64,000 nt of DNA from positions 2,418,001-2,482,000 of the forward strand of contig NZ_CP054150.1 in NCBI RefSeq assembly GCF_021310995.1, given 5' to 3'. Shown one piece after another: positions 44,192 to 46,784 of the stretch; positions within the stretch are counted from its first letter, which is position 1; each line of letters starts with the position of its first letter. Both the position numbers and the translations under genes were made by a program. The notes beneath the pieces are model-generated. The model was not told the DNA's origin. It did not search any database and saw only the letters and a program-made list of their open reading frames with translations. Source of the stretch: Agrobacterium vaccinii (GTDB taxonomy: Bacteria > Pseudomonadota > Alphaproteobacteria > Rhizobiales > Rhizobiaceae).

Positions 44192-46399
44192 TCAGTTCGA
44201 AGAGTACGCCCTGACAATCACATCGACCTGAGCATCGCTCATTTGCTGAACCTGCTCGGTCGTGAAGGATTTGATCTTCGCAGCCGAGAGCCCCGAAAGC
44301 GTTTCGGTGCTCAGTCCAGAGATGGCATTCTTCTTGATCGATGCGATCTCCACATCCGTAAAGCTGCTGAGCTCATCAGAAGACAATGTCGCGGTGTGTT
44401 TAGCGCTCAATGCAGATATCTGCACGCTGTTGAGAGCGGTAATGTTGGCGAGGGTCAAAGCGTCGAAACTGGCCGTGCTGAGGGACCCGATCTGCTTTGA
44501 TGTCAGCGCTTCCAGCTTCTTGACATCGAGACCAGCCATGAGATCGGTCGAAAGACCACTAAGCTGCTTTGCCGTCAAGGCGCCAAACTGGTCATCCGTC
44601 AGTGCCGCCATTTGTGCGGTCGAAAGGGCATTCATCTGAGCCGTCGTCAGAGAAGCGATCTGCGCGGTGGTGAGAGCCATAAGCTTACTGCTGGAGAGCC
44701 CCGCAAGCGCATCCGTCGTCAGGCCGGAAATGGAGGCCTTCTTCATCGAAGCGATCTCGCTGGAAGTGAAACTGTTGAGTTCATCAGCCGATAGCGTCGC
44801 GAGGAGCTTTGCGCTGAGGCCGGCAACCTGACCATCCGTCAAAGCGGCGATGCTGACGGAACTCAAAGCATCAAACTGTGCCGTGGAGAAGGCCGCCAGT
44901 TGCTTCGTCGTCATGGCATCGAGTTTGATACCCGAGAGATTGGCAAGTGTATCAGTCGAGAGACCTGCGATCTGCTTTGCCGTCAATGCTGCGAACTGGC
45001 TCGATGTCAGGGCCGCCAATTGCGAAGAGGTCAAGGCCTGCATCTGCGTAGACGTCAGTGCCGATATCTGCGCGGTGGTTAAAACCGCAATCTTGCTTGT
45101 TTGAAGACCCGCAATCGCATCCGTCGTAAGGCCGGAAATCGACGTCTTCTTGATTGAAGCAATCTCGCTGTTGGTAAAGCTGTTGAGTTCGTCAGCCGTT
45201 AGTGTGGCGATCAACTTGGCGCCAAGCCCCGAAATCTGTCCGTCGTTCAAAGCCACGATGCTCGATGAATTCAAGGCTTCAAACTGCGCGGAAGAAAAGG
45301 CCGCGATCTGCTTGGTGGTCATCCCGTCAAGCTTGCCGCCGGCCAGAGTGGCAATCGTATCCGTAGAAAGCCCGGCGATCTGCCTGGCCGTCATCGCTCC
45401 AAACTGCGCCGATGACAGCGACGACAGTTGCGTATCTGTCAGCGCCTGCATCTGTGCGGACGACAGGGCAGAAATCTGGACACTCGTGAATGCGGCAATC
45501 GTGGCCGTCGAAAGGTTTGCCATCGCTTCCGTCGATATCGCGGAGACAGCGGTCTTCTTGATGGACGCGACTTCTGAAGCCGCGAACTTATTGAGTTTTT
45601 CTGCGGAGAGTGTCGCTATCTGCTTTGCGCCCAGCGCGGAAACCTGTGACGCGTCGAGCGCTTCGATATTAGCCGAACTCAACGCCCCAAACTGGCTGGT
45701 CGTCAGCGATGCGAGCTGTTTGCTCGTCATCGCCTTGAATTGCGTAGACGTCAGATCGGTGATGATTTCTTCCGAGAGACCAGCAATCTGTCTGGGAGAA
45801 AAGGCGGAAAACTGCGCTCCGCTCAGTGCGCCGAACTGCGTTTTCGTCAGCGATCCGATCTGGGTCGACGACAAAGCGCCAATCTGGACCGTCGTCAGGG
45901 CAGCAAGCTTGTCTGTCGTCAACCCGGAGAGCGCCGTCGGATCGATGGAGGAAATCGACGTCTTTTTGATGGAAGCAATTTCAGCGCCGGTGAAGCTGTT
46001 CAAATCGTCTGCGGACAGGATCGCAATCTGCGACGAGGTCAGTGCCGACACCTGCCTGCTGTCGAGCGCTTCTATCTGCTCATCGGAAAAGGAATCCAGC
46101 TGGTCGGCGTAAAGCGCGCTGATCTGCTGAGTCGTCAGACCGGAAATCTGTCCTGCGCCGATCGCGTCCAGCTGGTCCAGGGACAGGCCGGTCACCGCTT
46201 TGGGCGCGAGCTGACTGATGACCTGGTTACTCAGAGAAGAGATCACCCCGGCGTCAAGGACACTGACCTGCGTCGATGTTAGAGCTTTGACTTGCGCCGC
46301 ACTGAGACCAACGAGGTCGTCACTCGTCAACGTCGAAATCATGGAGGTTGCAAGAGACGCAATCTGCCGCGGTGAGATATTGGCGAGTACAGAAGTCAT
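44192..46399 (-). CDS. Octapeptide-repeat protein, 91 tandem octads, unknown function
   Basis: 735 residues made almost wholly of an 8-residue unit, L-(T/S)-x-x-Q-(I/L/F/M)-x-(A/G/S), for example LTTAQISA, LTSSQFAA, LTAKQIAG. After 7 residues there are exactly 91 octads. They form a 15-residue cap, five super-repeats of 17 octads (136 residues), and a 40-residue end. The super-repeats are residues 16-151, 152-287, 288-423, 424-559 and 560-695, each closing with (D/E)LN(S/K) F-x-x-x-E-(I/V)-A-S and an I/M-K-K octad. There is no signal peptide, membrane segment, Cys or Trp. The S/T-x-x-Q pattern looks like repeated helix-capping boxes, which suggests a solenoid of short helices. I do not recognise a characterised family. 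The reading-frame integrity and codon-level divergence between copies argue for selection on the protein. Confidence 0.8.
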   Translation of the reverse strand: MTSVLANISPRQIASLATSMISTLTSDDLVGLSAAQVKALTSTQVSVLDAGVISSLSNQVISQLAPKAVTGLSLDQLDAIGAGQISGLTTQQISALYADQLDSFSDEQIEALDSRQVSALTSSQIAILSADDLNSFTGAEIASIKKTSISSIDPTALSGLTTDKLAALTTVQIGALSSTQIGSLTKTQFGALSGAQFSAFSPRQIAGLSEEIITDLTSTQFKAMTSKQLASLTTSQFGALSSANIEALDASQVSALGAKQIATLSAEKLNKFAASEVASIKKTAVSAISTEAMANLSTATIAAFTSVQISALSSAQMQALTDTQLSSLSSAQFGAMTARQIAGLSTDTIATLAGGKLDGMTTKQIAAFSSAQFEALNSSSIVALNDGQISGLGAKLIATLTADELNSFTNSEIASIKKTSISGLTTDAIAGLQTSKIAVLTTAQISALTSTQMQALTSSQLAALTSSQFAALTAKQIAGLSTDTLANLSGIKLDAMTTKQLAAFSTAQFDALSSVSIAALTDGQVAGLSAKLLATLSADELNSFTSSEIASMKKASISGLTTDALAGLSSSKLMALTTAQIASLTTAQMNALSTAQMAALTDDQFGALTAKQLSGLSTDLMAGLDVKKLEALTSKQIGSLSTASFDALTLANITALNSVQISALSAKHTATLSSDELSSFTDVEIASIKKNAISGLSTETLSGLSAAKIKSFTTEQVQQMSDAQVDVIVRAYSSN

Positions 46400-46784
46400 G
46401 AGCGCGAGACACCGTAAATTACTGATCAGGAATGAAGTCTACACAACGAAACTTGCCCCGGTATTGCGCGATAGACTGCGACAGCCGTCGTAACACGGCG
46501 CACAAATTCCATCGCAGCCAAAGGGCAGAGCCATCTTGCAAACAGCTATAGTCGGGAACATGGCTCATAAGAGCCGGGCGCATCAAACTAGCTTCATGCG
46601 TGCAGAATTCTATAAACTCTGCCTGTGCGCCGAGAGACGAAATCGTCTCGATCTACATGGTCTAATCAGCAAAAATCTAAATGAGACACTTACTATACTA
46701 ACCATCTGTACAATAACAACACAGATAATTCTCGTCAAGATCACACCGCCAAGTTTATGCAACCCCCACTACCAAATAAAACGA
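46400..46784. other. AT-richer gene-free stretch upstream of the octad protein
   Basis: About 385 bp with lower GC than the surroundings, notably 46660-46780. It should hold the promoter of the octad-protein gene. A palindrome CTCATAAGAGCCGG-type and CGAAATCG-type inverted repeats are small. I see no gene. Confidence 0.45.

Follow-up and report, generated by a model that had tools for sequence, protein, structure and literature searches.

An all-octad ALTTAQ-repeat protein of Agrobacterium vaccinii: a superhelical period of 3.4 octads and a probable family link to TPR/GT41 glycosyltransferases

A 64,000-nucleotide stretch of the Agrobacterium vaccinii genome (contig NZ_CP054150.1, positions 2,418,001 to 2,482,000; hereafter the window) contains an open reading frame (ORF) for a 735-residue protein that is built of octapeptide repeats from its eighth residue to its end. 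Why is a single phase kept over so many repeats, and with what does such a protein work? The protein belongs to the ALTTAQ-repeat family PF20080. The octads of this family recur with a period of 3.4 per superhelical turn, and the family is probably linked in function to TPR/GT41 glycosyltransferases, which are OGT-like (O-GlcNAc-transferase-like) enzymes. No paper on the period rule or on the enzyme link was found among the open-licence PubMed Central (PMC) papers searched, and both are new.

The ORF begins with ATG and has the coordinates, strand and length given in the original prediction, which was made from the sequence alone. Its residues count out as 7 + 91 x 8 in one phase, without insertion or deletion, and the 91 octads form five super-repeats of 17 octads plus six C-terminal octads. 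The octads had been described as exact; this is true of their phase and not of their residues. Position 1 is L, F, I or M in 91/91 octads and position 6 is I, L, V, F or M in 89/91, while S or T occupies position 2 in 68/91 and Q occupies position 5 in 45/91. Self-identity is 28% at a lag of 8 residues, versus 3-9% at the remaining lags from 1 to 9, and reaches its maximum of 53% at 136 residues (17 octads), in agreement with the five super-repeats proposed. The I/M-K-K octad recurs every 17 octads as described (numbers 18, 35, 52, 69, and 86). The protein has neither Cys nor Trp, also as predicted; 201 of its 735 residues are Ser or Thr, and no signal peptide or evident secretion signal was seen by eye. 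The super-repeat copies share 45-70% identity in DNA and 33-68% in residues, and therefore the window gene contains no recent duplicates. To this extent, the earlier view that the array is not a recent expansion stands. The array is not static, however: the window protein and its 11 orthologs contain 74, 91, 108 or 125 octads, all equal to 6 modulo 17, and the super-repeat number thus changes among species.

Fourier analysis of the octad sequences was compared to shuffled octads in 64 proteins, i.e., the window protein, 11 orthologs, and 52 others that include both paralogs from the same genome. Seven loci without an ORF past the octad filter (L063, L065, L091, L092, L095, L096, and L098) and three ORFs with fewer than 40 octads were left out of the counts. 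The pooled spectrum peaks at 0.295 turn per octad, or 3.4 octads per turn; besides this peak, the main ones, at 0.41, at 0.115, and a third in the range 0.16-0.20, are aliased harmonics of 0.295. The fundamental band exceeded the 95% shuffle maximum in 61/64 proteins (not in L078, L079, and L083). The top peak was significant and on a harmonic in 58/64; the remainder are L061, L072, L077, L079, L083, and L089, with the peak of L061 (0.185) near harmonic 4. Duplications of 17 octads create peaks at any multiple of 1/17, which counts against the window group as proof of the period when taken alone; the evidence for the 3.4-octad period therefore comes from the remaining members. Outside the window group, 47 of the 52 proteins had local maxima at 7 as well as at 10 octads, which a 17-octad duplication alone does not yield (the test failed for L072, L079, L080, L083, and L089). 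Self-similarity lags in the family include 7, 10, 17, 24, 27, 31, 34, 38, 44, and 61 octads, near multiples of 3.4, with some members peaking at other lags, e.g., 2, 4 or 5 octads. As read from the sequences, each octad of the family is rotated by the same amount against the one before, about 0.295 turn (about 106 degrees); sampling once per octad does not separate +106 from -106 degrees, and either handedness fits. At 3.4 octads per turn, 17 octads make five turns, and a superhelix of this period would explain super-repeats of 17. The period, present in 61/64 proteins, also strengthens the earlier suggestion that strict phase reflects structural constraint.

AlphaFold2 modeled the full protein with 91 helices, one start per eight residues, at a mean pLDDT of 92.3 and a pTM of 0.62; for residues 144-415 alone, these values were 93.0 and 0.84. 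The window protein very probably folds as the modeled solenoid of short helices, one per octad. This fold had been proposed beforehand with structure prediction as its check, and confident disorder did not appear. The pTM of the full model leaves the long-range shape uncertain, which counts against any firm statement about the rod as a whole. Leucine-rich repeat chains match the protein by sequence, but the AlphaFold2 model contains no strand, and this identity was rejected. HeliScrew4 (PDB 9zem) has the same type of octad (phmmer E 4.8e-17 over 105 residues; profile match E 1.1e-30 over 107 residues); it is only 120 residues long and is known here from the sequence match and its name, which suggests a designed protein. 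No paper on HeliScrew4 was found in the open-licence PMC literature, and it is absent among the fold-search matches listed. Mesothelin chains filled six of the top seven Foldseek rows for the fragment 144-415 (probability 0.96-1.00), but TM-scores did not exceed 0.39 with the fragment and 0.42 with the whole model. The mesothelin family PF06060 is not among the 12 Pfam rows of the window protein (E up to 10), and the relative P0044 has a weak PF06060 row under the cut-off. The available text on mesothelin describes a right-handed solenoid in which 24 short helices form nine layers (PMC10035497), and that on stereocilin and otoancorin describes them as predicted to be similar to mesothelin (PMC2628672). 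We read the likeness to these animal proteins as a resemblance rather than membership.

The match to PF20080 scored 292.7 bits against a cut-off of 26.4 and covers 26 stretches; the protein shares its octad and its superhelical period with most members tested. It is thus not an orphan, and it has two paralogs in its own genome (4.87 Mb, three contigs). Nor does the match place it in a well-characterized family: PF20080 is known but uncharacterized, and no paper was found by its name or accession among open-licence PMC papers. Family ORFs range from about 600 to more than 5,000 residues. There is no Cys in 87,056 octad residues of the family, and the isoelectric points (pI) computed for 14 proteins are acidic (4.2-5.7). 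Other relatives are joined to RTX, calpain-type protease, matrixin or Ig-like domains, while the window protein has octads alone. Where plasmid records were listed with names, the members bear the label hypothetical protein; a few relatives are named otherwise. The unrelated Pfam models CAAP1, DUF4351, Sigma70_r4_2, and LRR_EndoS also exceed their cut-offs on the window octads and are a likely source of wrong annotation.

FliF, GT41, UDP-galactopyranose mutase (GLF), M15_2, and N-formylglutamate amidohydrolase were named from domain profile matches; Pyk, DUF1036, CheB, VisN, VisR, and ATP-grasp/DUF403 are names that we presume from sequence. The 1415-residue paralog, near an operon read as ATP-grasp/DUF403, has 176 octads (6 modulo 17) and, at 76-79% self-identity for lags of 17 and 34 octads, is much less varied than the window copy. 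The 2390-residue paralog has 297 octads (8 modulo 17) and shows residue stripes, e.g., Gly at position 8 versus Asp at positions 4 and 5. It lies directly upstream of fliF, with GT41 and GLF genes upstream and a second GT41 gene downstream; ORFs of 2390-2462 residues recur in many genomes of the genus.

Might the array be a tolerated, functionless low-complexity sequence? Its divergence is fast, with 50-67% identity between the window protein and six orthologs versus 95-99% for the neighboring Pyk in 11 loci. However, frame and phase are kept in the window protein and all 11 orthologs, and length changes in steps of 17 octads. Compared to its closest relative (L010), nonsynonymous divergence (dN) is 0.26, far below a synonymous divergence (dS) of 2.3 (NG86; dS near saturation), and differences by codon position number 204/123/437. 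Octad positions 1 and 5 are conserved (14/91 and 13/91 changed), versus 55/91 changed at position 4. On this pattern of substitutions the ORF is truly coding, and a functionless array is highly improbable.

The presence of ALTTAQ repeats and of GT41 genes agreed in 36 of 37 genomes from the same genus: 26 have both, one has ALTTAQ alone, none has GT41 alone, and 10 have neither. The two lie 0.6-4.3 kb apart in 26/26 genomes (upper bounds, among the matches listed). Beyond the genus, GT41 genes were found in 48/49 searched genomes holding named family loci (from 57 loci outside the window group, minus seven on short contigs and L082); base rates are 106/289 class genomes and 133/398 phylum genomes. 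GT41 occurs in the flank of 17 of these 57 loci, with about 0.34 genes expected (two profile matches per gene); two of the 17 matches (L047 and L075) are partial and at the locus edge. The link is weaker in wider draws than in the genus. In the class draw, 5/6 ALTTAQ genomes have GT41, four of the six within about 5 kb, versus 101/283 others (Fisher 0.026), and in the phylum draw 19/28 versus 114/370 (Fisher 1.3e-4); both tests ignore descent. Carriers with 20 or more ALTTAQ matches in the phylum draw have GT41 in 17/18 genomes, a cut chosen after the data were seen. Both families also gave matches in the control genome, that of Caulobacter vibrioides. In Rhizobiaceae, the enzymes beside octad genes are of the kind found beside GLF and the 2390-residue giant (GT41a; 60-82% identity, full-length hits), with 37-39% identity to the kind found beside flagellin (GT41b). 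Single GT41 ORFs of 2506-3213 residues with several tandem GT41 matches (L110, L111, and L118) occur in octad-bearing genomes, two of these ORFs being from Candidatus Magnetaquicoccus.

Several observations weigh against a general link, or against one that includes the window copy. GT41, GLF, and type I secretion system (T1SS) genes were not detected in the fetched flanks of 11/11 orthologs of the window gene, and no GT41 was seen in the ORFs read beside the 1415-residue paralog. ALTTAQ repeats occur without GT41 in 9/28 phylum-draw genomes, including G755 with 20 matches, as well as in G017 of the genus (one weak match) and G250 of the class draw. Fourteen of the 18 phylum-draw genomes with 20 or more matches are from one family. 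Conversely, 30 of 40 GT41 regions hold no octad ORF; these regions were chosen among those listed, with Rhizobiaceae and the listed genes of G097, G104, G106, and G107 left out. Of 61 relatives, 53 have a PrtD-type T1SS gene above the cut-off, whether or not they carry ALTTAQ, so this gene does not discriminate. The RTX repeat PF00353, present in P0044, is absent from the Pfam rows of the window protein. With these points counted, a functional link between the family and GT41 is still likely; the window gene, given its flanks, may no longer belong to the module.

Known GT41 enzymes with TPR repeats O-glycosylate proteins, and this speaks against reading the octad protein as an unglycosylated secreted adhesin whose adjoining GT41, GT2, and GLF genes serve the synthesis of a surface polysaccharide unrelated to it. 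In favor of that reading, polysaccharide loci typically contain GLF and GT2 genes too, and the window locus has none of them. However, a GT41 gene is the recurrent neighbor of octad genes, whereas GLF and GT2 are only sometimes there, and we consider the polysaccharide explanation decidedly improbable.

A precedent is FlmG, described in the available text as a soluble TPR plus GT-B enzyme that glycosylates Caulobacter flagellins in the cytosol before export (PMC7591256). The octad family resembles this system in that a TPR glycosyltransferase is found in the genome and beside members in the genus, though not adjacent to the window gene, and in that some octad genes lie in flagellar neighborhoods. 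FlmG acts on flagellin, whereas here an octad rod would take its place as acceptor. The enzymes might instead serve flagellin as FlmG does, the octad proteins being separate passengers of flagellar clusters. In the host genome, one GT41 gene and a flagellin gene are about 1 kb apart, and in G014 GT41 adjoins two flagellin genes. However, flagellins are present in 37/37 genomes of the genus and GT41 in 26, and therefore GT41 loss tracks octad loss, not flagellin loss. Four genomes (G003, G006, G025, and G036) have no match to flagellar references in 20 kb around the module (two stretches partly masked), and their GT41 is 60-62% identical to GT41a versus 38-39% to GT41b. The Pseudomonas pairs adjoin T1SS genes instead. 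We regard this alternative as distinctly unlikely.

We now return to the octads as acceptors. The window protein would be a rigid superhelical rod, a shape that we infer from the predicted helices and the rotation read from the sequence; each octad would form one short helix, and five turns per super-repeat would bring the same octad (e.g., I-K-K) back to the same face. The family would work with a GT41 enzyme, in Rhizobiaceae often also with GLF, and GT41 would glycosylate octad Ser/Thr in the cytosol, as FlmG does on flagellins. The modified rod would then be exported and may form a surface or flagellum-associated fiber with a role in attachment or motility. Because no GT41 adjoins the window gene, its product could be modified only in trans, by the GT41 enzymes beside the 2390-residue paralog next to fliF. 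By analogy with FlmG, glycosylation of the octad proteins of the family is the outcome we favor. For the window copy it is slightly doubtful, and export of that copy could go either way. The sequence of steps as a whole, from a Ser/Thr-rich, Cys-free helical rod O-glycosylated in the cytosol to an exported fiber, has evenly balanced prospects.

Alternatively, the rod could stay in the cytosol, unexported and unmodified, as a scaffold or sponge that holds or regulates GT41 (TPR against octad solenoid). A place next to GT41 suits a binding partner no less than a substrate, inspection by eye shows no evident secretion signal, and the neighbors, in conserved order, read as housekeeping genes (presumably pyruvate kinase; N-formylglutamate amidohydrolase). 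The Cys-free octads of the family, the relatives joined to RTX, matrixin or Ig-like domains, and the T1SS genes next to the octad/GT41 pair of three Pseudomonas argue the other way, and a cytosolic scaffold seems unlikely. Lack of Cys and an acidic pI are features shared with type I-secreted giant adhesins, as are the great length of relatives and the T1SS neighbors; the window protein differs in having no RTX repeats and no T1SS detected beside its gene.

In the three Pseudomonas loci (L136, L139, and L142), genes for a T1SS ABC transporter, HlyD, and OEP adjoin the octad/GT41 pair; the T1SS queries came from L136. ABC and HlyD matches also lie beside GT41 in six regions whose fetched stretch has no octad ORF (L108, L117, L135, L138, L141, and L144), one each from six betaproteobacterial genomes, but at 26-30% ABC identity these are weak evidence. 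T1SS references had no match in the flanks of the 11 orthologs, and one ABC hit (32%) lies 38 kb away in the window. Flagellar genes are in the flank of 8/57 loci (L042, L043, L053, L058, L063, L064, L082, and L091), and also of L154 and of two of the 11 window orthologs; these are raw counts, and several loci are close kin. Some flagellar and T1SS queries came from L113, L143, and L136, which overlap L064, L091, and L068, giving three self-hits identified by Pfam. The flagellar gene near the two orthologs encodes a flagellin of about 600 residues, about 4 kb away. The starts MTSVL and MTSII of octad proteins resemble MTSIL of the host strain's flagellins. In beta- and gammaproteobacteria, octad genes repeatedly have a neighbor that encodes a companion protein of about 270 residues, and GT41 is often there as well; the two examples scanned had no Pfam match.

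The window gene is flanked by pyk/DUF1036 on one side and an M15_2 peptidase gene on the other, with an N-formylglutamate amidohydrolase gene close by, and the order is kept in 11/11 orthologous loci. Upstream, the inverted repeat GGYTC-N4-GARCC, with GCATGAAGC before it and ATGTT after it, is recognizable in 10/11 aligned rows (window plus 10 orthologs), the exception being L036. Both arms changed together in three rows, and the repeat is the sole mismatch-free match in the genome. Starts resembling that of the window protein also occur in several other closed relatives (by eye), and the C-terminal ends of orthologs and both paralogs are like its own (QV....I.AY-like). The features are collected in Table 1.

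Table 1. Coordinates of the window gene, its parts, and related features (positions in the window unless a locus is given).
Feature	Coordinates	Strand	Remarks
ORF, 735 residues, all-octad ALTTAQ-repeat protein	44192..46399	minus	stop codon 44192-44194; basis: ORF call, PF20080 match, AlphaFold2 model
Seven-residue start MTSVLAN	46379..46399	minus	like starts in orthologs and both paralogs (MASEIAS, MTSIISS, MTSIIPS)
Super-repeat 1	45971..46378	minus	residues 8-143, 17 octads; most diverged copy
Super-repeat 2	45563..45970	minus	residues 144-279
Super-repeat 3	45155..45562	minus	residues 280-415
Super-repeat 4	44747..45154	minus	residues 416-551
Super-repeat 5	44339..44746	minus	residues 552-687
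Six C-terminal octads	44195..44338	minus	residues 688-735; end in the sole long helix (722-733)
Inverted repeat CGGYTC-N4-GARCCATGTT	46557..46576	minus	upstream of gene; aligned upstream regions
Two overlapping sigma-70-like promoter matches	46692..46738	minus	upstream of gene; consensus matches alone; 3 in region versus 1.1 expected
1415-residue paralog	L029:5796-10043
2390-residue paralog	L030:6098-13270
Flagellins near window orthologs	L031:12472-14250; L037:12427-14223
Companion of about 270 residues	L113:8605-9456; L143:12672-13475; L142:10535-11398; L086 near 10405; L093 near 10862

It is tempting, though rather doubtful, to see the octad proteins as a separate class of bacterial surface or flagellum-associated glycoproteins, long screws with chemically distinct stripes along the rod, with a dedicated OGT-like enzyme that acts before export, length quanta of 17 octads or five whole turns (in the Agrobacterium orthologs), export by T1SS or the flagellar route depending on lineage, and possibly a galactofuranose glycan, as the GLF partner suggests. 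The family gains two testable points: a structure rule of 3.4 octads per turn, with 17 octads to five turns, and TPR/GT41 as partner enzyme, often joined by GLF in Rhizobiaceae. Caulobacter vibrioides, with matches to both families, may serve as a model organism. If the proposal is true, it would explain why super-repeats in the Agrobacterium orthologs comprise multiples of 17 octads, and the octad proteins would be an additional class of bacterial O-glycoproteins with a built-in ruler and a natural many-site substrate for OGT-like enzymes.
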